64,000 bases of DNA. Source: Choanephora cucurbitarum. Taxonomy: Eukaryota; Mucoromycota; Mucoromycetes; Mucorales; Choanephoraceae. Positions 7,861 through 21,716 of this stretch are shown in pieces. The stretch lies in NCBI GenBank assembly GCA_025331435.1, contig JAIWNI010000048.1, positions 164,297 to 228,296 on the forward strand, written 5' to 3'. The position numbers were made by a program, and so were the translations under genes. Within the stretch, counting starts at the first letter, position 1. Each line of letters opens with the position of its first letter. The notes under the pieces are model-generated. The model did not search any database and was not told where the DNA came from. It saw nothing but the letters and a program-made list of their open reading frames with translations.

Positions 7861-10631
7861 TTATTTTTTGCCTAACAGCATTGCACGAAAATCGTCATTA
7901 CTCTTGCTTGTTTCCGGCTCTTCCTTCTTGTCAGACTCTGTCATTAATTTGTCGGCATCACTGCGATTGACAGATCGCTGGCCCAATTTCAATGCCTTGC
8001 CTCTTCGAATGGCTGTGTGAGGTCTAGCTGAACGAGGTCTAGGCATGAATGCCGCTGTAGATTTAGGCTTATCTTGCTTAACTTCCTCCTGTTCTTCTTT
8101 AGGTCCTGATTTCACCTTCTTTGCTTCTTGCTCGTTCTCTGCAGAAAGTTTTCTCTTTAAGGGATTTGGCTCTTTTGGAGCTACTTCAGCAGAGATATCT
8201 TCTTTTGTGGATTCATCATCAGCTGCAAAAACAGGCTCTTCTTTCTCCACAGGCTTCTGATGGCGTTGGCTTTGTAAGGCTTTCTGGATTGGTGCCTTAA
8301 AATCACTTTGGTTTTTCTTTTCTTTTGCTCTTTGCTTTTGAGCAATTCGATGTTGACTCTTCTTTTTCTATAGTTTGTCTGAGAGTTAGTTGACAAGAGA
8401 AAAATGCTTTGATAGCTGTCTTACTCTATCCATTATCTTCTTTTCCTTGCTCTTTTCTTCTTTCTCTTGAGTATATTGTGACTGCCATTGTCGAGAGAGT
8501 TGCTTGGTCTTTCGATTGATACGTACAAGAGATTCTTCAAATGATGCTAATGTACCAACTTCATGTTCAATTGTATTCCAAACATCGATCAGACGAGCTG
8601 GATTGTCAATCTTTTTTTGTATGGCTTGCTTGAATAATGTTGCACAGCGCTCATAGTTTTCTTGATCTCTATATTTTTTTGTGTCTATCAGAAAAATAGA
8701 AGGAAAAAAATACTATTTCTGATTTTCTAGTTTACCGTTCAAACAGGATCAATTGAATCCATGCTTCTGTGTTTAATCCTTGTCTTTCAACAACATCTTC
8801 CCATAATTCTCTTGCCTTCTCTGCGTCATCAAATCGCTTAAGTGAGATATAAGCATAGTATTTTTCGATACGGTAATAGGGATCACCCGATTCGGGAAAT
8901 GCTAGCCATAAGTCAATATCAATTCTTTTTTTTTTTTGAATACTTCGTTTGTTCTACCTTCTGCTATGTATTCTAAACTCTCCTCAAACGCTACTTTCAA
9001 ATCCATAACTGCATCTTCGTCCACTAATGACAAATGTTTTCCAAAAGGAAAGAATAAGTCATGGATTGCTAATGGAATCTGCCTTACTTACAATCTTCCC
9101 AGTCAATTCGTCTTCTTGCATGATCGCATTTGGCTAACAACACAGTAACAAGGTCTTCTATACTTGACAAAATTGGTTTTGAGGCTAAAGCTCGATCAAA
9201 AATGTCTAACAGATAGTGTAAGCGAAACAAAGCTCTAGGTTTCATGACCAGCTGCTTAACATACTTTGTACTTGCTCAACTGATTTCTGGCCAGATTCAA
9301 AGGCTCTAGCTAAATGGGCCCATAATGCGCCAGACCAAGGACAGTTGCGTACAGCTCTCTTACAAGTTGTTTCTAGATAAGCTTGTATTCTAGCACGTTC
9401 AATCTTGATTGTAATGGTGTTATTACCCTGTTTACACAAATGAATTATAAAGCAAATTTACCAAGAACAGAATGTAGTCGTCCCATAAACTAGGATCAGT
9501 GCAATAGTAAATGATGGCTCGCTCATACAACGATCGAACGTGATTTAGCGCAAACATGTTTTTCGTTGTCAGTTCATATTCTATATATTGATAAAATGTA
9601 TCGAGTGCGTAGCCAGTGGATGTCAATTGAAGTTCGTAGTAGTCTCGCTCTTCGGCTGCTGCTTTCGTCTTGGCATAGATTTTGTTAGCCTCTAACATAC
9701 TCTCTTCATAGTTGGTATTGCTGTACTGAGTGACAAATTGAGAATAGCTATTGAATGTATCTTCACAGTCAATATGAAGAACAGCCAGTCTATCCAAATA
9801 CATCTTTTTAGTACGGCTCAACTGATATTCATCTTCATTGAATCGTCCCAGGATAGCCAATTCAAATTCTGAATAAAGCTTCCAAATTTCTTGGCTTTGC
9901 TTCACATGGTTAGACGAGGCTCTGACTGCCTTTAGTAAATCCTGACGAGTATGATCTATCCAATCCTCTACTGATTCATCCAGTGTGGTGATGTTGTCTG
10001 TAAAATCTTTGTAGAAGTTTTCGAGTATATATTCTGTATAATCTTTCCAAATAGCAATAGCTGTTTTCGATAAAGGGAAGAGAAAGAGAGAGGGAGTAAG
10101 AGAATGTCACGAAGTATTTATCATTCTATTCACTAAGTGCTTACACACATAATCCTCTTGAGCTAAATCATATAGTTGAAACAACTTCTTTTTTCCTTCA
10201 GCTGTATCTGATTCTTTTTTTGCATCTTGAATCCATTCGAGCCATAGAGCTATAATAGAGTAAACAACAATGATCAATGTCAACTGTCTGACTATAGGGT
10301 CTATGGTCTACCTTCACTCATAGGGTAGATGGCATGCATATTAATTCGGGCTTGTTCGAGTTGGTCATAAAGCTCTGCTCGTCTCAAGAGTTGGATCAAT
10401 CGAACGTGTAAGTCATATTGTGTGTTATCTTCGTCTAGCTAAAGTAAACATTTTGTGTCAACAATGTATATGATTGGTCTTTCTATCGATAAGAACCTTT
10501 TCTATGACATCAGGGATAGCTTCAAGTGCATTAAGTGTGTCATTTGCTTCATCAATAGGCTCATCTTTAACAATGTCGTCTACTTGTTGCTCTGTTGTAT
10601 CAGAAACAATCTTGTCGCTTACTTGATCCAT
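7861..10631 (-). CDS. SART3-type HAT-repeat splicing factor, apparently without RRMs
   Basis: Multi-exon gene starting MDQVSDKIVSDTTEQQVDD, with an acidic leader and then HAT (half-a-TPR) repeats. Clear matches to SART3 are LHVRLIQLLRRAELYDQLEQ, EIWKLYSEFELAILGRFNED, YTKSAAAEERDYYELQL-like helices and CPWSGALWAHLARAFESGQK. The C-terminal exon (7861-8250 and upstream) is Lys/Glu-rich and ends with two short conserved elements, AFMPRPRSARPHT and SNDDFRAMLLGKK, resembling the LSm-contacting tail of SART3. SART3/Prp24 proteins re-anneal U4 and U6 snRNAs during spliceosome recycling. Between the HAT region and the tail I find only basic coiled sequence (IAQKQRAKEKKNQSDFKAPI), with no RNP1/RNP2 motifs, so the two RRMs of animal SART3 seem absent. 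Internal exon borders were not all resolved. Confidence 0.8.
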
Positions 10632-11383
10632 AGGTGGCTATTATATTTACAAAGAGAGATAGAAGCGCGTATAATACTCTCAAAAGAATTTGCGCGTCTT
10701 CAAATAAGCATAAAGTCACTTTTAAACAAATTCTCAGATGTCTCACAAGTTACTGGCTAGGCTGCCATTATGTATGTAATAAGTTGTGTGGTGATGAAGT
10801 TAGACATAAAGACATCCGAAGGCTATATAATGCACAATACTTGTACTTCTGAGTCAAGTTCCTCTCTTTTTCACTACTCTTACTATTCAACTAATCTATT
10901 GCTTAAACCTTGCTAGTTGAAGTAGAGAACTAAACAAGAGTATTATACTACTCATTTTAAACATGCTGCTGCTATGTTTGATTTTCCTCAGCTCAACAAA
11001 GCATGAGATGTACATGCTTTTGAAGTCGCTGAGTCTGTAGATCTTAGCAGTTAACATCACACAAGAACGTGAATATAAAGTTCTCACTCATCTGACAAAA
11101 GAATGATGTTGCTCATATCTAAGCCTACTTGACGAGTAACCAAATAAAAACGAAGAGAGAGAAAACGTCAATAACAGATAGTTGCGGCTGAAGACATAGC
11201 ACAAAACAAGCATCGCTCTAATTCAGCTCCTCAAAGATTCAGAAATCTCTCTTTTTCAAATCCAGAAAGAGAACTGACACAAAGGTTCTCTTTATTATTT
11301 GATAATGACAGCTTCGCTAGTGGCTTGTGTGCCTTAATTCTTTTTGTCATTCTTTTATTTACAGATCGCTGACATCCAGATTG
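10632..11383. other. Divergent intergenic region between SART3-like and Dus1 genes
   Basis: No coding exon is supported. Short open frames (10455-10852 on +, 10896-11087 on -) have no recognisable motif. A possible 5'-leader acceptor (TTTACAG at about 11,358-11,364) precedes the Dus1 ATG by 20 bases, so a 5'-UTR intron is possible. Confidence 0.4.
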
Positions 11384-12970
11384 ATGTTCAAGAACACTCT
11401 TTCCCTAGCAACCAAAGCATATAGCCAGAGTAACAAGCCGAAAGGTTATGATTTCTATACCAAAGTGCTTGGATCGCCCAAATACATCGTCGGGCCCATG
11501 GTGGAGCAGAGTGAGTTAGCCTGGCGCATACTCTGCAGACGCTACAACGCTCATTTATGTTATACTCCAATGTTCCATGCCAGACTGTTTAGTGATCCTA
11601 TCGGTGGTCCCAAATATCGGGCCGATCAGTGGTCCAGCAGCAAAGAGGACCGACCGCTTGTTGTTCAGGTATGATATATGTGTATATAGTGAGAGAGAAA
11701 GACATAGACACTAACCTATACTTGCACTCTGTACTTGCACTCTGTATTTGCACTCTGTACTTGCACTCTCTATACTCTCGCACTGTAGTTCTGTGCCAAT
11801 GATCCAGATATACTGCTACAAGCAGCCAAGATGGTGGAGGATGACTGTGAAGCAGTCGACCTGAACTTGGGATGCCCTCAGCACATTGCCAAGAAGGGAC
11901 GGTACGGCTCATTCCTGCAAGACGACTGGGAGCTGATCCACAAGCTGATATCCACACTTGACCGAGAACTCAAGGTGCCAGTGACAGCCAAGATCAGAGT
12001 GTTTGAGAGTATCTCAAGAACAGTAGAGTATGCACACATGCTAGCAGACGCAGGTGCTCAACTGCTCACGGTACACGGCCGACTGCGCGAACAAAAGGGA
12101 CACCACACCGGAGTGGCCGACTGGACCAAGATCAAGGCTGTCAAGGAAGCAGTGACGCATATCCCTGTCATTGCCAACGGCAACATCCAGTACCACGATG
12201 ACCTGCGAGCCTGCTTTGAGCAGACAGGCGTGGACGGAGTGATGAGTGCAGAGGGTGTGTTATACAATCCGGCTCTGTTTGATCCGAATCACTCAGCAGC
12301 GCCACCCAAGGCTTACGACATTGCTCTCGAGTACCTTGAGATCTGCAAAGAAGTCAAGCCAGCAACCAGGCCAGCTATCATCAAGGGTCATCTGTTCAAG
12401 CTATTCCATACAGCTTTCCGTCTTCATACGGATCTTCGGGCGCAGCTGGGCACATCATACACATTGGAGGCCATGGAGAAGATTGTGCTGGAGATGAAGG
12501 ACCGACTCTTGCGAGAAGAGGCAGACAGCAGTAGCAGCCAGACGACAGATCGGCTGGGACATTGGTTTTGTCAGGTAAGTGAGGTATCCATGGGTATGTT
12601 GCTGATGCACATACACAAGCAAGAGAGCGGGTGAAAGACAAAAGCATATATATATATATATATATATACACATACATACATACATATATATATATACATA
12701 CACACATACATACAGCAGGTTAATCTTACTATGTTCTGATTTTCTTTGTTTCTTCTTCCTTTGTTACCTCTTCTCTGCCCTTTCATTGATCTTTTGGTTT
12801 TCTTTTTCTTTGTTTGTTTTTGTTGTGGTTCTTTGACTTGCTTTGAAATTGCTGATTGTTGTGGCATTTTTTTTTTTTTTTTGGCGGGATCTTTTTTCTT
12901 TGTTGGTTCTTCTCCTATTTGGTGCATGAAACAGCCCTATGTTAGGCCTGGATTGAGTTCTATTTCATGA
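11384..12970 (+). CDS. DUS1: tRNA-dihydrouridine(16/17) synthase Dus1
   Basis: An FMN-dependent enzyme that reduces uridine 16 and 17 in the tRNA D-loop. Exons 11384-11668, 11789-12574 and 12935-12970 are in phase and give 368 residues. Diagnostic motifs are [20 protein letters not shown] (FMN-binding N-terminus), [34 protein letters not shown] with the catalytic Cys, [20 protein letters not shown], the sugar-binding MSAEG and the Dus1 C-terminal signature [10 protein letters not shown] split by intron 2. Intron 2 is 360 nt, much longer than neighbours, and holds a TA repeat and poly-T. Intron 1 carries four copies of a 13-bp minisatellite. From 11605 on, the gene is part of the palindrome's left arm. 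Confidence 0.93.
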
Positions 12971-13625
12971 GGTATAGGATAGGATAGGTTGAAGCGATAC
13001 AACACAACACAACACAATGCAACACAACACAACACAACACAACACAACACAATACAATGCAACACAATACGAGACATAATGACATTATCTGAATTAACAA
13101 TAATAGCAGTAACAACAACAACAACAACAACAATAGCCCAAAAAAATAGAAACACAAAATTATAGACAGAAAAAAAAAAGAATAAAGCTAAACGGATGAA
13201 CACAGTGTGACCTTACAGTCATTGTATGAGCAGTAACTGTTTGTTGCCATTTTCGCTTATCATGTGCCGTTCATGCGACAGAAGGGATTGTCATACCTGT
13301 TTCCCTCTCTGTCTATCTCTCTTTTATTTTATTTTATTTTTCTTTACCCCCTTTTTTTTCTTACTCGAACTTGTATGAAAAAAAAAAAGAAAAAGAAAAG
13401 CAGGATCGAGGAGGAGAGAAGGGGGGGGGGGGGGAAGAAAGAGACGGAGACGAAAAAAAAAAGCTTAATAGTGTACAAATGTAAGTGTGTGTGTGTGTAC
13501 ATAAAGAGAATAGTGTAATTTGGGGGGGGGGGGAGAGGGAAGAGAAGAGAAGGGGGAGAGAAGAGGTGAGAGACTAGGAAAGATCGATGAGACAAGATAA
13601 TAGGAGATGAAGGCAAAAGAGAAAT

Positions 13626-13657
<32 letters not shown>

Positions 13658-14345
13658 TAAGAGAGTTGCATTACGAAATAGATCATGATTCGATTGTTTT
13701 GGCATGCATCGACAGCAACCTTGTTGGTTGCCATAAAAGGTCAAAAGTCTGGTCTGCACGGGCTCGAAGAAAGAAAAATAGAATTTGCTTGATCGAGCTA
13801 ACTTGCTAGCATGAAATAAAGTTTTTTCTTTTTCTTTTTTCTTTGCTAAGATTTGTCATTTTAGAGCTATTTGGTGTGACGAACAAGGAAATGACTCAAT
13901 CAAATTAATTAGTACCTGTTTTCATACAGCATTAATTTCGTGCGTTAACATATATAGCTTATAAACAAGAGACAGAAATCGCATTCCCAAATGCATTCTC
14001 GAAGATCTCTCTTTCTCGCTTTCTATGAGGTGTAGTAGTAAGAGGGGGGTTTTTTTTTTTTTGAAACACTTTGTAATTTGTGTAATTAAGCAAAGTCCTT
14101 GTAACCAAACAAAATGAGCCAAGGATCGCCTGCAGTTTCTGAGAAGATAAAGAGACTATGCTATTCACCTTTGCTAACAACAGTATAAGAATTCTTCTCT
14201 AATTAAAAAGAGTCATACACCATTTCCCGAGATAGATTGCACACTGGGAAAAAAAAAGAAAAAAAAAAAAGAGAAAGAAAAGATGACACAAGAAATCCAA
14301 ATTGTAGGTCGTACCCACCACAATAACCAGCTTGCCAAAGCAAAG
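11605..14345 (+). repeat. Left arm of a large inverted repeat (palindrome)
   Basis: About 2.74 kb repeated in inverted orientation at 16746-19643. The match begins in Dus1 exon 1 at TGGTCCCAAATATCGG and ends at GCCAAAGCAAAG. Wherever I compared blocks by eye the arms differed only by scattered substitutions and by the lengths of simple repeats. The arm contains most of Dus1 plus 1.4 kb of 3' flank. That flank is rich in microsatellites: an AACAC-type repeat at 13,000-13,070, CAA units at 13,111-13,133, G runs near 13,421 and 13,521, and A27 at 13,631-13,657. I see no gene in the flank. Confidence 0.93.
12645..12713. repeat. TA/CATA microsatellite inside Dus1 intron 2
   Basis: An alternating TA tract followed by CATA tetranucleotide units. 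A counterpart of different length lies at about 18,404-18,471 in the right arm, so it is length-variable between copies. Confidence 0.85.
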
Positions 14346-15040
14346 ACGAAAGGCGCGGTATAACCCCACTCTTGATTACAATGTTTTAGGTAACTTAGGA
14401 ACTGACTTGTTCTAGCAATTTATTGCAATAACTCTCTCTCCCTCTCTCTCTTAGCTTAGCATTCGAAAGATATAAAGAGGAAGCCGTTCGTCTTAGGAGC
14501 CACCAGTTTTACACAGCCAATGTCCAAATAAGGATCGACTTTAGCACCGATAGATAAACAGAGGGTGCCCAATGCAGTAATGCCGGTAGTACGCACACTA
14601 CAAAAAGAGTAGTGGCAGTAGCATCAAGTTCCTATCAAACAGAAGAGAGTCGATGACTTCATATGTATTGTCTAAAATATAATGCTGTAAGTTCTAGACA
14701 CAACGATATGAATCAGAATTTCTATTCTGTATCGGCGACTCTTCGCATTGCCCCCGAAAAAACTAATAAAAATATTATTCAAACACTGTTCACTGAGTAT
14801 GTTACGAAAAAACAATCTTACACTCACGGCACATAGATCGCAAGAGAATTGATTGACCTTGATGTGCAAAAAAGGTGAAGTGTATCGAAATATTGGAGGT
14901 ACCCCCCCCCCCCTCCAGACAAGTAAGAAATCAGACCAAGCGGCAGAAAGGATCATCCTTATAAATTAACAGTTTATAAAGAAAAAAAGAGATTTGGATG
15001 TTCGACTTATGTTGTCCAGACATGAAAACACACACAAATA
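14346..15040. other. First part of palindrome spacer, degraded fragments
   Basis: Unique sequence between the arms. On the minus strand, about 14,480-14,610 reads TTGITALGTLCLSIGAKVDP then YLDIGCVKLVAP, which faintly recalls the N-terminal DPYLNID region of CTP synthase but is not convincing. A minus-strand open frame at 14672-14956 has no recognisable motif. I can support no intact gene. Confidence 0.35.
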
Positions 15041-16315
15041 CAGACATTTAGCCGATAAGATCAGTATCTTAGGCAGTACAGAAGGCCGAGAGAACTAATT
15101 GAAATTCAATGATGCATACAAGCTGTTCAATGACATAGATCAGAATGCCAAATCAAGCAAAATTTAGGAGTATCTGAGCTGAGGCTTGAATCACACCAAG
15201 CTTTGTGGTGACGATATTAGCAATACGACATATAAAGAACAAATGAAGTGACAATATAATTCATATGTCTCAAAAAAGTTACAATACCATTGGTTCAATG
15301 AATGGAAGGTAAAGGCTTTAAAGTGAGCTACAACTGCAATGTTGCTAGCTTCTTTACCAGCATTTTCTTCGGCAACAATTACATGATTGCGACAACCAAA
15401 AGGTTTAATGAAATGAATTTAATTGAAGCAAACAATGACCACGACAACCTGAAGATGCCGTTGATTTGTACCTATGGTACTTGCAATGTCGGAGATTTTG
15501 TTTTGAAGTTATTTCCCATTATTTCTGCAGGAACATTAGATGAGACTGAAGAGACTTACAAATGGTCTCTGCTCAGTCTCAAAAACATGCTGCAAGGCAT
15601 TCCTCGATCTAACTTATTTGTTGCTGATAAGTGTAAGGCATTGTTGAATGTACTTGATAGTGTGTTTCGTAAAATAAGAGATCGCCCTACATTTGGCGTA
15701 TGTTGAACAGTTTGAAAAGGAAAAGGCTTACTGAATACGTTGAAACCAAGAGGCTGGCTATCGCAATGTTTTAGGACAATTTTATCTTTGTTTCCAAAGA
15801 AACGCAGCAATCGTTCCAGAGATATCTTGAAGTAGAGTGACTCTTTTATGAAGCTGATTGGGCAATCTATCATATGTTGAAATTGTTGCATTCAGGCTGC
15901 CTTACCACTCAAAGAGCTAAAAGCGCTCGTGGTGCATTACAGAAAACAATGAACGCAGCACAGAGGTTTTCTAAAGTACTCAGCTGAAATCATGTAAAAT
16001 AACTTCAGCAATACCATTGAAGAGGAAGGGTGGTATCCAAAAGTATCCTTGCCTTCTGTTGTTGAAGCCTCAGCTTCAAGAGGGAAGAACATGCATACAA
16101 GCATATTAAAAGACGAAGTTTCTAAAGCATGCATCCCTCTCGGTGATAACCATTGCGGCTTTTATAGTGCAAGCGTCGTTGTCTACGGTAATAAGTCACT
16201 CTACTCTATACTAAAGCAAGTTATGCTGAGGTTATTGACAAAGAACAACAAGATATACCAGAAAATTGGTATAGATGTATAAGACGTAGAAAAATGTATC
16301 TATCTCGGCATGATA
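15041..16315 (+). pseudogene. Decayed Mutator-like transposase with OTU domain, in palindrome spacer
   Basis: The open stretch 15302-15706 resembles the core of a MULE (FAR1-type) transposase: CTYGTCNVGDFVLKLFPIIS, TYKWSLLSLKNMLQGI, then NLFVADKCKALLNVLDSVF, the usual position of the second catalytic acidic residue. Past stops and frame shifts, 16049-16282 encodes a linker and an OTU-like start (PLGDNHCGFYSASVVVYGNK) with the Asp-x-x-Cys protease signature. The domain order matches the element at 2.5-4 kb, but a different part survives here. Stops in every frame make this a relic. No terminal repeats were identified. Confidence 0.6.
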
Positions 16316-16745
16316 TAGTTACCAAAGAAATGCATCAGTTCAAAAGCGAAAAAAACAGAGTAGTATACTGAACAAAGAAGAGTGAGCATCTTTCAAAGAA
16401 AAGCATTTAAAAATGCATAGGATGTCTAATATAGCTATGAGCACACACTTGCTCAACTGTGCGAAGTATGCTCAAATCCTGCAGACAGTTTTTATAAACC
16501 TGTATGTGCCTATCCATCGCCCAAGCATGAAAGTGATTAGAGCCCACAATTACGTTCTTACCATTCGGATTACCTGCAAAATAGGCTAAAAAGCCATCCC
16601 TATACATTTACAAAATATTTCTCATTTATATTAGGTTAATTTTAGAATAGAGAAAGGATATGCTTTTAACCCACCTGAGAAAATATTGCATTATGCAACT
16701 GACAGTAACAAGGGAAATTTTCAAAAATATCTTTTCTGTTAATAA
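16316..16745. other. End of palindrome spacer, no gene supported
   Basis: Contains an open frame on the minus strand (16407-16607, with NPNGKNVIVGSNHFHAW) that I do not recognise. Codon content is not decisive. No RNA gene or repeat is visible. Confidence 0.35.
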
Positions 16746-17424
16746 CTTTGCTTTGGCAAGCTGGTTATTGTGGTGGGTACGACCTACAATTTGGATTTCT
16801 TGTGTCATCTTTTCTTTCTCTTTTTTTTTTTCTTTTTTTTTCCCAGTGTGCAATCTATCTCGGGAAATGGTGTATGACTCTTTTTAATTAGAGAAGAATT
16901 CTTATACTGTTGTTAGCAAAGGTGAATAGCATAGTCTCTTTATCTTCTCAGAAACTGCAGGCGATCCTTGGCTCATTTTGTTTGGTTACAAGGACTTTGC
17001 TTAATTACACAAATTACAAAGTGTTTCAAAAAAAAAAAACCCCCTCTTACTACTACACCTCATAGAAAGCGAGAAAGAGAGATCTTCGAGAATGCATTTG
17101 GGAATGCGATTTCTGTCTCTTGTTTATAAGCTATATATGTTAACGCACGAAATTAATGCTGTATGAAAACAGGTACTAATTAATTTGATTGAGTCATTTC
17201 CTTGTTCGTCACACCAAATAGCTCTAAAATGACAAATCTTAGCAAAGAAAAAAGAAAAAGAAAAAACTTTATTTCATGCTAGCAAGTTAGCTCGATCAAG
17301 CAAATTCTATTTTTCTTTCTTCGAGCCCGTGCAGACCAGACTTTTGACCTTTTATGGCAACCAACAAGGTTGCTGTCGATGCATGCCAAAACAATCGAAT
17401 CATGATCTATTTCGTAATGCAACT

Positions 17425-17472
<48 letters not shown>

Positions 17473-17961
17473 ATTTCTCTTTTGCCTTCATCTCCTATTA
17501 TCTTGTCTCATCGATCTTTCCTAGTCTCTCACCTCTTCTCTCCCCCTTCTCTTCTCTTCCCTCTCCCCCCCCCCAAATTACACTATTCTCTTTATGTACA
17601 CACACACACACTTACATTTGTACACTATTAAGCTTTTTTTTTTTCGTCTCCGTCTCTTTCTTCCCCCCCCCCCCCTTCTCTCCTCCTCGATCCTGCTTTT
17701 CTTTTTCTTTTTTTTTTTCATACAAGTTCGAGTAAGAAAAAAAAGGGGGTAAAGAAAAATAAAATAAAATAAAAGAGAGATAGACAGAGAGGGAAACAGG
17801 TATGACAATCCCTTCTGTCGCATGAACGGCACATGATAAGCGAAAATGGCAACAAACAGTTACTGCTCATACAATGACTGTAAGGTCACACTGTGTTCAT
17901 CCGTCTAGCTTTATTCTTTTTTTTTTCTGTCTATAATTTTGTGTTTCTATTTTTTTGGGCT

Positions 17962-18012
<51 letters not shown>

Positions 18013-18147
18013 ACTGCTATTATTGTTAATTCAGATAATGTCATTATGTCTCGTATTGTGTTGCATTGTATTGTGTTGTGTTGTGTTGTGTTGTGTTGCA
18101 TTGTGTTGTGTTGTGTTGTATCGCTTCAACCTATCCTATCCTATACC

Positions 18148-18439
18148 TCATGAAATAGAACTCAATCCAGGCCTAACGTAGGGCTGTTTCATGCACCAAA
18201 TAGGAGAAGAACCAACAAAGAAAAAGGATCCCGCCAAAAAAAAAAAATGCCACAACAATCAGCAATTTCAAAGCAAGTCAAAGAACCACAACAAAAACAA
18301 ACAAAGAAAAAGAAAACCAAAAGATCAATGAAAGGGCAGAGAAGAGGTAACAAAGGAAGAAGAAACAAAGAAAATCAGAACATAGTAAGATTAACCTGCT
18401 GTATGTATGTGTGTATGTATATATATATATGTATGTATG

Positions 18440-18472
<33 letters not shown>

Positions 18473-19643
18473 GCTTTTGTCTTTCACTCGCTCTCTTGCT
18501 TGTGTATGTGCATCAGCAACATACCCATGGATACCTCACTTACCTGACAAAACCAATGTCCCAGCCGATCTGTCGTCTGGCTGCTACTGCTGTCTGCCTC
18601 TTCTCGCAAGAGTCGGTCCTTCATCTCCAGCACAATCTTCTCCATGGCCTCCAATGTGTATGATGTGCCCAGCTGCGCCCGAAGATCCGTATGAAGACGG
18701 AAAGCTGTATGGAATAGCTTGAACAGATGACCCTTGATGATAGCTGGCCTGGTTGCTGGCTTGACCTCTTTGCAGATCTCAAGGTACTCGAGAGCAATGT
18801 CGTAAGCCTTGGGTGGCGCTGCTGAGTGATTCGGATCAAACAGAGCCGGATTGTATAACACACCCTCTGCACTCATCACTCCGTCCACGCCTGTCTGCTC
18901 AAAGCAGGCTCGCAGGTCATCGTGGTACTGGATGTTGCCGTTGGCAATGACAGGGATATGCGTCACTGCTTCCTTGACAGCCTTGATCTTGGTCCAGTCG
19001 GCCACTCCGGTGTGGTGTCCCTTTTGTTCGCGCAGTCGGCCGTGTACCGTGAGCAGTTGAGCACCTGCGTCTGCTAGCATGTGTGCATACTCTACTGTTC
19101 TTGAGATACTCTCAAACACTCTGATCTTGGCTGTCACTGGCACCTTGAGTTCTCGGTCAAGTGTGGATATCAGCTTGTGGATCAGCTCCCAGTCGTCTTG
19201 CAGGAATGAGCCGTACCGTCCCTTCTTGGCAATGTGCTGAGGGCATCCCAAGTTCAGGTCGACTGCTTCACAGTCATCCTCCACCATCTTGGCTGCTTGT
19301 AGCAGTATATCTGGATCATTGGCACAGAACTACAGTGCGAGAGTATAGAGAGTGCAAGTACAGAGTGCAAATACAGAGTGCAAGTACAGAGTGCAAGTAC
19401 AGAGTGCAAGTACAGAGTGCAAATACAGAGTGCAAGTACAGAGTGCAAGTACAGAGTGCAAGTACAGAGTGCAAATACAGAGTGCAAGTACAGAGTGCAA
19501 GTACAGAGTGCAAGTACAGAGTGCAAGTATAGGTTAGTGTCTATGTCTTTCTCTCTCACTATATACACATATATCATACCTGAACAACAAGCGGTCGGTC
19601 CTCTTTGCTGCTGGAACACTGATCGGCCCGATATTTGGGACCA
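18148..19643 (-). pseudogene. 5'-truncated second copy of Dus1
   Basis: Exon 3 (18148-18183) and exon 2 (18544-19329) encode the same residues as the left copy, with synonymous changes such as TAT to TAC in PYVRP and GAA to GAG in CKEVKP. Exon 1 survives only from GPKYRADQ to the donor (19580-19643) and has W changed to C in the QWSSS motif. The FMN-binding N-terminus and the start codon are missing, so it should not make a working enzyme unless fused to a new leader. Just outside the arm, in frame, the sequence still reads NARLFH before GPKYR and SPL before that. This resembles the Dus1 consensus, so more of exon 1 may survive in diverged form. Confidence 0.75.
19346..19529 (+). repeat. 13-bp minisatellite, 14 units, in Dus1 copy intron
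   Basis: Tandem units of TACAGAGTGCAAG, with a variant in which the last G is A recurring at every fourth or so unit. The left arm's matching intron (about 11,720-11,773) has four units. The regular position of the variant suggests higher-order duplication of blocks. Confidence 0.92.
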
Positions 19644-20076
19644 TGGAACAGTCTAGCATTGAGGGGAGACAGCAGCCTAACTTTGTTTGATCATGGGGTT
19701 TGATCGAAATGATAGCTAAAATACGTACAATGAAACAACAGTTGAAATAAACCAGTTGAACGATCTGAAACACAGATTAGCTTAGAATCGAGATTTTTAT
19801 TTTTATTTTAGAAAACAAGTTGAATTATAGTTTGCTCCTTAGAAAGTAATGCTAATTTAAAATAATAAACATAAGGATTTTTGCTCTTTTTTGGAAATGG
19901 AAAAATCAGGAGTTTTTCATTTTGGGGGGTGAGAGAAGGAGAAAATGAAATTGTATTAATATGGAAATCAGGGAGAATTTGGGAAAAAGAAGGAGATAAA
20001 TCAAACTATAAAAACTTAAGCTTTTTCTAACCCTTTTTCTTTCATTTTCTTTTCATTGTTTCTTTGTATAATAACT
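19644..20076. other. Intergenic, between Dus1 copy and methyltransferase
   Basis: AT-rich. Nothing coding is seen beyond about 19,680, apart from the possible diverged Dus1 exon-1 remnant noted with the truncated copy. The last 100 bases before the methyltransferase ATG are pyrimidine-rich and probably promoter. Confidence 0.4.
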
Positions 20077-21716
20077 ATGATTGGATCAAATAATTCCTCA
20101 TTGCTCGAACAGCCTTCTTTTTTTCAAAAGATATTCAGAAAGAAATCACTTTCTAAACGTAGCATGCGTCCAATGTATACTGCTGATATGCTCACAGAAT
20201 CCAATTGGCACAACAGAAAACAACACACAAAGACATACAACATGAATAGCACACCTTCACTCAGTCCGTCTGCTTCATCTACTTCCTCCAACGCCTCATC
20301 CGCAGGTGTAGCCGATTCTGAATTTCCTGTACACCACGCCTATAGCACATGCGGAGATACCTCGGCAACAGCTCCTTTGCCACCAACACGCCCTAAGCGC
20401 CCATTGAGTGCAGAAGTTTTAATTAAAATCATGGATAAGCGCCTCTTCAAAAAGAAACAACGCGAACTGCAACGAGCACAAGAAGAACAATGGATGCATT
20501 ATCAGACACTTCGTACACCCAATGTATCTTCTGCTGCATCTTCGTCTTCATCTTCATCCTCTTCATCACCTCGTCTCAATGGACTAATTCATCTGAAACC
20601 ATCTAGTTCAACACATAGCAGAAAACAAAGCCTCAAGAAGAAATTACGTAGCACGCCTAAAGATAATACAACAGTCAAAAAGATGGCCTCACACACGCCC
20701 ATGGTGTCAACAAACACAAACAGTAACCATGATGTATTTCCATATGTCTTGACACAAGACAATGACGAACAAGACAGGATGGTTACACAGCACTACATTC
20801 TGCGTACCGCCTTCGGTGCTGACTACATGTCGCCCATTCGTACTCGACTGGAACAAGGCATCATCGTGCTTGATGTTGGCTGTGGACCTGGTACCTGGAC
20901 AATGGAGATGGGCACAACATTTCCTAATTCTACCTTCATCGGAATCGATCAGGCCGCGTTCTTTCCAAAGGACATCAAGCCACGCAATTGCCATTTCCGA
21001 ACATGTGGTCCATTGCTTGTAGGACAACAGGGCAAAGAAGATTTAACACTTCCATTTCCCGATAACAGCATTGACTACATCTATCAAAGAGACATGAACT
21101 GGGGCTTAACTGCTCAGACATGGCAGCCCTTGTTACTGGAATACCAGCGTATCTTGAAACCTGGTGGCTGGATCGAATGCATGGAACCTGATCTCTCTAC
21201 ACAGAACAGTCTAGGAAATGAATGTGCCATGAACGATAAACGTATGTATCATTGAATAGCCTATATGATCTAGTATTAACAAAAACAACAGTCATCTCAG
21301 GCTTGGCTATGCGTCAACAAGATCCTTATGCAGTTCATCGGTTACCTACTGTCCTTGCTATCAATGGCTTTAGACAGGTAGAAAATATCTCTCAGACACT
21401 TCCTCTTGGTTGGGGTTCGTTTTATGATACTGCCAACAAGTCTACCTCTACTCTCTCTTCAACCAAGACAGCAAAACGATCAAGTCAGAGTAGTCATGCA
21501 GATGCTGAATCAAATCAAGAATGCTCTACATTTGCAAAGGCTGTATCAAGTCAATATCTGTATATGCTCAAATCTCTTAAGCCATGGTTATCTGATATAA
21601 TGCATATGAGTTCCCAGAAATATGATGCTTATATTGCAAGCTTACCAGAAGAATGGGTACGTGCTCGTACTTTTGTTAAATGGCATAGTATTATTGCTCA
21701 AAAGCCATTTGTGTAA
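20077..21716 (+). CDS. SAM-dependent methyltransferase with disordered N-terminus
   Basis: Exons 20077-21241 and 21301-21716 give 526 residues. An upstream in-frame TTG at 20056 is not a plausible start, so the ATG at 20077 (MIGSNNSSLLEQ) is used. About 250 residues are low-complexity Ser/Thr/Lys-rich (a run of Ser near 165-175). A class I methyltransferase fold follows: motif I IIVLDVGCGPGTWTMEMG, motif II FIGIDQAAFFP, DLTLPFPDNSIDYIYQRDMN and motif post-II YQRILKPGGWIECMEPD. It resembles fungal LaeA-like and TAM-type enzymes, whose substrates are often unknown. The C-terminal exon carries NGFRQVENISQTLPLGWGS and a conserved RTFVKWHSIIAQKP end. Substrate and pathway cannot be inferred. Confidence 0.85.

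Follow-up and report, generated by a model that had tools for sequence, protein, structure and literature searches.

An apparently recent inverted partial duplication of a Dus1-type gene forms a palindrome in the Choanephora cucurbitarum assembly

Y-chromosome palindromes consist of near-identical inverted arms that are homogenized by gene conversion and separated by a unique spacer. Inverted gene duplications are also known to silence genes by hairpin RNA, as at the plant CHS, PAI, Lgc1, and Mu killer loci. In the human fold-back copy number variants (CNVs) described in PMC3907307, an inverted copy follows a single-copy spacer of 766 to 70,466 bp (median, 3,428 bp), and the events are Mb sized and accompanied by a terminal deletion, translocation, or ring. 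In the yeast events described in PMC11724301, fold-back synthesis is captured by the other break end, which places an inverted local copy, mostly of 5 to 34 bp and with a 41-nt loop, between the two ends of one break.

The palindrome reported here lies in a 64-kb stretch of the C. cucurbitarum assembly (the window), which contains no N bases. Self-BLAST, a repeat search, and global alignment placed the left arm at 11605 to 14345 (plus strand, 2,741 bp) and the inverted right arm at 16746 to 19643 (minus strand, 2,898 bp), with a 2,400-bp spacer at 14346 to 16745. An earlier, sequence-only reading had described two near-identical inverted arms of these sizes, carrying an inversely duplicated Dus gene around a Mutator-type relic, and had proposed a self-comparison; self-BLAST and the repeat search recovered the arms at these positions, and both the duplicated gene and the relic were found. 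A search of the 33.4-Mb genome showed that the spacer matches itself alone. For the arm, a search restricted to the best-scoring candidates with simple repeats skipped returned the two arm positions themselves, part of another Dus gene at 69% identity (C301:37510-37916), and short simple repeats. With its high arm identity and a spacer that occurs once in the genome, the palindrome appears to have arisen recently, at the DNA level, by an inverted duplication of ordinary kind that copied part of the gene named Dus1B in this analysis.

The arms are bordered by distinct genes. The left neighbor (7861 to 10631, minus strand) is a HAT-repeat SART3-like splicing factor gene, so named from its homologs, with Pfam HAT and Lsm-interaction matches all below their cutoffs, and the right neighbor (20077 to 21716, plus strand, with an approximate 3' extent) is an S-adenosylmethionine (SAM)-dependent methyltransferase gene. 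Linkage, meaning placement on contigs of identical length irrespective of adjacency, was found between Dus1B and a SART3-like homolog in at least 8 of the 14 other Dus1B sequences, a methyltransferase homolog in at least 7, and at least one of the two in at least 11. Some Dus sequences outside the Dus1B clade, e.g., P0015, P0022, P0024, and P0038, are also linked to these neighbors, and the linkage is therefore no mark of Dus1B alone. The recurrence of this linkage to Dus genes in related genera argues against an assembly artifact made from a chimera or an unresolved repeat. The assembly comprises 357 contigs, and the right end of the window coincides with the end of contig C301, which would be compatible with an artifact; however, the arms differ by substitutions and array lengths and enclose 2.4 kb of unique sequence, while a missed-adapter hairpin read should presumably have no spacer. 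An artifact is thus highly improbable.

The left copy is a complete gene of three exons encoding 368 amino acids. Exon 1 (11384 to 11668, plus strand) contains the start codon, a possible presequence, and the N-terminal part of the Dus domain, and the left arm starts within it. Exon 2 occupies 11789 to 12574, and exon 3 with the stop codon was predicted at 12935 to 12970 from splice signals and the ends of orthologs (both plus strand). A full-length exon 1 that matches those of orthologs is present in the left copy alone, so its identification as the parent is well supported. The earlier description of a duplicated Dus1 thus holds for a whole gene on the left, but the right copy is without most of exon 1. 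There, a remnant (19580 to 19643, minus strand) has no in-frame Met back to a stop codon at 19693; the 5' part of exon 1 and any in-frame Met before exon 2 are missing. Exon 2 (18544 to 19329, minus strand) remains an open frame and exon 3 lies at 18148 to 18183 (minus strand), each with one synonymous difference. The right copy also has a W-to-C replacement at a conserved residue, which is W in all nine Dus1B sequences covering it, the left copy included, and F in the canonical Blakeslea copy. A retrocopy was ruled out because the daughter holds the introns and 1.4 kb of 3' DNA. The daughter is a 5'-truncated pseudogene that has been diverging through repeat slippage and a handful of substitutions. 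For annotation, this is a warning that two Dus copies may be nearly identical although one of them is beheaded.

Global alignment of the arms gave 2,719 matches, 7 mismatches (7/2,726 aligned bases, 0.26%), and 11 indels, and the main 2,672-column piece showed 97.6% identity in the self-comparison. All 11 indels fall within or border simple-sequence DNA, namely homopolymers, microsatellites, and a 13-bp minisatellite. The latter, in intron 1, has 4 units in the parent (11719 to 11769; GAGG by variant base) and 14 in the daughter (19349 to 19529; GAGG GAGG GAGG GG), both given on the plus strand, and the daughter array reads as three repeats of the 4-unit block of the parent followed by two further units. 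These differences bear on the possibility that the palindrome is old and that gene conversion has kept its arms alike. It resembles Y-chromosome palindromes, where this occurs, in its near-identical inverted arms and unique spacer. Unlike those, the Choanephora palindrome is far smaller, one gene copy is truncated, and the repeat arrays are unconverted: none of the 11 repeat-length differences, including that of 4 versus 14 minisatellite units, has been converted, and the substitutions are scattered along the arm as far as 13658. A literature search on gene-converted palindromes of fungi found only work on rotifer retroelements.

The outer end of the right arm is untidy and bears on the same alternative. 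Just outside the arm, a block at 19644 to 19662 (minus strand) resembles exon 1 at 12 of 13 (14 of 16) positions, with a 12-bp length difference and a divergence above that of the arm. Next to the arm, this match was reached in 0 to 9 of 3,000 random pairings (three lengths, two nulls), and between the whole of exon 1 and the whole right flank it was reached in 11/300 and 60/300. Searches for a decayed exon 1 at 80, 120, and 200 nt gave scores reached by 1, 16, and 177 of 2,583 pairings with long-gap scoring, by 36, 49, and 79 with standard scoring, and by 267, 571, and 877 with middle scoring; random pieces from 11000 to 20200 were left out of the gapped-scoring nulls only. An anchored-extension test beyond the right arm was weak (171/1,500 and 123/1,500). 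Homology probably runs slightly beyond 19643. The contrast between 2/16 differences plus a 12-bp length change in this block and 7/2,726 in the arm is like the edge of a conversion tract; however, under none of three scorings was there significant similarity to exon 1 upstream of this block of 16 bases (418, 1,336, and 1,193 of 2,574). In addition, the Ile of FESISRT is common to both arms, while Blakeslea and a second C. cucurbitarum protein, P0002, have Val, although the shared Ile would also be consistent with a duplication that followed the strain split. P0002, from a 5,587-bp contig, starts at the daughter's first in-frame Met, which might mean that its assembly also breaks at a palindrome, but it could break at the minisatellite alone. 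On balance, an old, conversion-homogenized palindrome is rather unlikely.

The spacer contains decayed pieces of a Mutator-like element (15290 to 16730, plus strand), comprising a putative MULE transposase piece (15302 to 15706, plus strand) and a further conserved piece that is OTU-like by motif only (15998 to 16282, plus strand). The MULE piece scored 22.8 bits against a Pfam cutoff of 27.6, whereas four of five related proteins scanned scored 74 to 76.5 bits for this domain and the fifth is a piece without that region. The OTU part of the element, as previously read, is a resemblance by eye, since no Pfam OTU match was obtained in the relic piece or the five related elements. The relic pieces lie in different frames with stretches missing and have at best 44 to 49% amino acid identity to other copies in the genome, so that, given young arms, the element must have been inactive long before the duplication, and the view that it is older than the copy is well supported. 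The element was suggested previously as a possible cause of breakage. Mutator excision or aberrant transposition could have broken the locus, or an element could have captured a piece of the gene; the coding similarity of the relic extends to within 15 bp of the right arm, and related copies with long open frames are present in the genome. Against this, the arms are only 0.26% apart while the relic is split and at most 44 to 49% identical to its relatives, no target site duplication of ≥4 bp was found at the right arm (20 bp on each side), and no inverted terminal match above chance was found there in 100-bp stretches around the ends, with 633 of 1,000 random pieces doing equally well. Without such signatures at the right arm, the locus does not resemble a Pack-MULE-like duplication, and transposon capture was rejected. 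To see whether the right arm may have landed inside the element, 16745 was joined to 19644 and compared with related Mutator copies; among the first 14 matches per program, none crossed the junction. The relic is unlikely to have driven the young duplication, and a transposon-made palindrome is very unlikely.

A fold-back or strand-switch inverted duplication completed by end joining is, with a reasonable degree of likelihood, the best explanation of the palindrome. A double-strand break may have occurred close to where the old Mutator relic has its 3' end, in the DNA that separated Dus1B from the methyltransferase gene. By folding back or switching strands, the Dus1B-side end would have annealed approximately 2.4 kb behind itself, priming backward synthesis of approximately 2.75 kb through the 3' region and exons 3 and 2 into exon 1, and the released product would have been end joined to the methyltransferase-side end. 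The stretch left unpaired would have become the spacer, and afterwards the left copy would have kept the full gene while the daughter drifted. The apparent retention of both flanks and a spacer that matches itself alone are what a templated insertion predicts, and the recurring linkage of Dus1B to the flanking genes also counts in its favor. At the inner junction, no similarity beyond chance was found past the boundary, and any microhomology would lie hidden inside the arm. The locus is like the human CNVs described in PMC3907307 in its inverted copy and single-copy spacer of a few kilobases, and, as proposed here, like the yeast insertions described in PMC11724301 in that a nearby sequence was inserted in inverted orientation at a single break, with one junction likewise made by synthesis and the other by end joining. 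However, the Choanephora copy is 2.7 kb and interstitial with the distal flank apparently kept, unlike the human events, which accompany terminal deletions, translocations, or rings (PMC3907307), and its 2.9-kb insert and 2.4-kb loop compare with yeast events approximately 100 times shorter (PMC11724301). Both differences count against the fold-back account, as does the untidy outer end with its 12/13 block and 12-bp length difference. The locus is a clean, apparently young, kilobase-scale interstitial inverted duplication from a fungus that is not among the usual model species, in which parent, daughter, and spacer are identifiable, and it could be used to test whether fold-back synthesis and end joining, which act over tens of bases in yeast, operate at the kilobase scale.

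The two Dus1B copies converge and are nearly perfectly complementary, and, like the plant CHS, PAI, Lgc1, and Mu killer loci, they could give hairpin RNA on read-through. Argonaute (Piwi), Dicer (Dicer-dimer), and RNA-dependent RNA polymerase (RdRP) genes are present in the genome, and exon-derived small interfering RNAs (siRNAs) are described in Mucor (PMC3720535). In a functional locus of this kind, transcripts running through the spacer would form long double-stranded RNA that silences Dus1B. However, transcription of each copy from its own 5' end would give RNA of the same sense, so a double strand could form only if transcripts continued through the spacer, approximately 3.8 kb past the stop codon just to reach the other arm. 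Within each arm, four AATAAA/ATTAAA signals follow the stop codon, and the daughter is without the native 5' end. Such a function is a faint prospect, and a palindrome that predates the strain split, is homogenized by conversion, and feeds RNA interference by read-through that sets the Dus1B dose is highly doubtful; it would represent a naturally occurring case, in the Mucorales, of silencing by an inverted repeat. A search for literature on tail-to-tail glutelin repeats found none.

The gene was previously labeled Dus1, and the type agrees: Dus (PF01207) scored above its cutoff, and the protein groups with those named tRNA-dihydrouridine(16/17) synthase, so that Dus1B is a predicted tRNA-dihydrouridine synthase of the Dus1 type. 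However, it groups apart from canonical Dus1 in the clade named Dus1B. NCBIfam gave nothing over cutoff for Dus exon 2 or the methyltransferase. A mitochondrial role for the enzyme is possible, and a literature search for a mitochondrial dihydrouridine synthase in Mucor found none. Among solved structures, those closest to exon 2 are named as tRNA-dihydrouridine(20) synthase-like proteins and Dus proteins of bacterial type, and a second, canonical-looking Dus1 lies approximately 137 kb from the window gene.

The inverted duplication is real in the assembly, is apparently young and is ordinary in kind. The left arm (window 11605-14345) and the right arm (window 16746-19643) are inverted relative to each other and flank a spacer of 2,400 bp (window 14346-16745). 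End-to-end alignment of the arms gave 2719 identical positions, 7 substitutions, and 11 indels, a divergence of 0.26% with indels left out. All 11 indels fall within or border homopolymers, microsatellites, or a 13-bp minisatellite, and the largest (130 bp) is the minisatellite itself, with 4 units on the left versus 14 on the right. In a search of the 33,437,511-base genome, the spacer matched itself alone, and the arm matched, apart from its two copies here, a diverged Dus sequence on the same contig (C301:37510-37916, 69%) and short simple repeats. The window spans C301:164297-228296 and ends where the contig ends, at base 228,296. The 3' half of the arm (window 12646-14283) contains many simple repeats (AT, ACAAC, AAC, and G and A runs) and is a possible fragile region.

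The left copy is predicted to be a complete gene of three exons (11384-11668, 11789-12574, and 12935-12970) encoding 368 amino acids, and the Dus domain scores above the Pfam cut-off in each of the two large exons. The right copy retains exons 2 and 3 and the splice signals, together with 64 bases of exon 1. In the parental frame, no Met precedes exon 2 as far back as the stop at 19693; the first Met (residue 52 of this frame) lies within exon 2, so that the product would have at most 259 amino acids and lack the N-terminal part. Of the seven substitutions, the one in exon 1 gives the right copy a C in place of W; all nine Dus1B-clade sequences covering this residue, the left copy among them, have W, and the canonical Blakeslea sequence in the same alignment has F. 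The substitutions in exons 2 and 3 are synonymous, and the remaining four are in intron 2 or 3' DNA.

Full exon 1 is present in the left copy only. Among the matches listed, at least 7 of the 14 other Dus1B sequences are apparently linked to a homologue of the right neighbour, a methyltransferase gene, at least 8 to one of the left, SART3-like neighbour, and at least 11 to one or both, linkage meaning an inferred common contig rather than adjacency. Neither neighbour was linked, among these matches, to the Dus1B sequences of Phycomyces blakesleeanus and Mucor circinelloides or to the second C. cucurbitarum protein, and some Dus sequences outside Dus1B (P0015, P0022, P0024, and P0038) also appear linked to these neighbours. 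Judged from these matches, this linkage of Dus1 genes is of long standing, and the simplest account takes the right arm as the insertion. The minisatellite variant pattern, GAGG on the left versus GAGG GAGG GAGG GG on the right, agrees with the left copy being the parent; all 16 genome matches to its two-unit pattern (≤2 mismatches) fall within the two arms.

We infer that a break was repaired with an inverted templated insert, which would leave a unique spacer, an inverted copy, and a retained distal flank. According to PMC3907307, a single-copy spacer is present at all 21 human fold-back junctions sequenced, with a length of 766-70,466 bp (median, 3,428), a size class that includes the 2,400 bp found here. 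Directly beyond the right arm, a block resembles exon 1 at 12 of 13 positions (a match reached in 0 to 9 of 3000 random pairings), which makes it probable that copying continued slightly beyond the present arm end and that this end was altered afterwards. Tests for longer exon 1 homology there were mixed to negative.

The sequence-only reading had placed a decayed Mutator/OTU element in the spacer and named breakage by it as a possible cause. The Mutator-like part is supported: relic piece 1 resembles a Mutator-like transposase (PF10551, 22.8 bits, below the cut-off of 27.6) and has 34 genome matches at E ≤ 0.001 including itself, the strongest others being 44-48% identical and some lying within open frames of 980-1006 amino acids. 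The MULE domain exceeds its cut-off in four of five related elements scanned. Piece 2, which has 15 genome matches including itself (best other, 49%), is OTU-like by eye, and none of the five elements has an OTU match. The relic similarity is colinear with frame changes and reaches 16730; compared with L044, one of the matching places, the relic lacks about 0.9 kb. Because the relic is so decayed against an arm divergence of 0.26%, it is unlikely to have broken the DNA at the time of the duplication. Elsewhere, L043, L044, L045, and L048 (contigs C246, C279, C337, and C357) have MULE domains above the cut-off and open frames of 1006, 980, 993, and 875 amino acids, and the first three also match piece 2 in the same frame. 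L048 has terminal inverted repeats of 315 bp with 99.7% identity, suggesting recent activity. L044 and L049 share an 8.9-kb stretch, 99.7% identical (C279 from 250000; C155 from about 14900 backwards), which reflects either recent duplication or contig redundancy.

P0002, the second Dus protein of C. cucurbitarum, is encoded on a contig of 5587 bases, probably of strain KUS-F28377, whose MiSeq reads gave 2,814 scaffolds according to PMC5238444. It differs from the window gene at 4 of the 248 residues that precede the intron. At one of these, the Ile of FESISRT, both arms share Ile, and P0002 and Blakeslea have Val. The simplest order is strain split, Val to Ile, and then duplication. Conversion between the arms could also yield this pattern, but all 11 array differences have stayed unconverted. 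The start of the P0002 model is the exon 2 Met that is also the first Met of the truncated right copy; its strain may also carry the palindrome, or its assembly may have broken in intron 1.

Hairpin RNA from the arms is possible but unsupported. The genome has RNA interference genes (Piwi at one place, Dicer-dimer at two, and seven RdRP matches on three contigs). Transcribed from its own 5' side, however, each copy would give the same sense strand, and a hairpin would form only by read-through beyond several AATAAA-like signals.

A second full-length Dus gene (404 amino acids), the canonical copy, is found roughly 137 kb from the window gene, near C301:37-38 kb. In a midpoint-rooted tree of 57 proteins (55 hand-picked from the best 120 of 4254 matches and two from this genome), the window gene grouped with sequences of Mucor, Parasitella, Pilobolus, Thamnidium, Pilaira, Cokeromyces, Benjaminiella, Mycotypha, Backusella, Phycomyces, Spinellus, Blakeslea, and Choanephora (15 sequences in all, support 100/98), here called Dus1B, and the canonical copy fell in a separate group (17 sequences, 100/100), here called Dus1A. 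By this topology, the window gene is not the canonical Dus1. Dus1B N-termini have 34-55 residues before the PMV motif in 11 of 13 motif-bearing sequences (27 and 29 in the other two) and are often Arg/Ser/Thr-rich (window 11384-12970; P0001, P0003-P0009, P0012-P0014, and P0023); the 17 canonical Mucorales sequences have 24-26, and long N-termini also occur in some Dus sequences outside both groups. The Dus1B N-terminus looks like a mitochondrial presequence, and Dus1B is possibly a mitochondrial Dus1 in these fungi. The titles listed by our literature searches included none on such an enzyme, and searching PMC3674756 for the names Mucor and Rhizopus gave no hit. In Mucor hiemalis and Mycotypha, the canonical Dus1 and a second methyltransferase are apparently linked (P0045 with P0197 and P0049 with P0218), as would result from duplication of the Dus1-methyltransferase neighbourhood in a single block.
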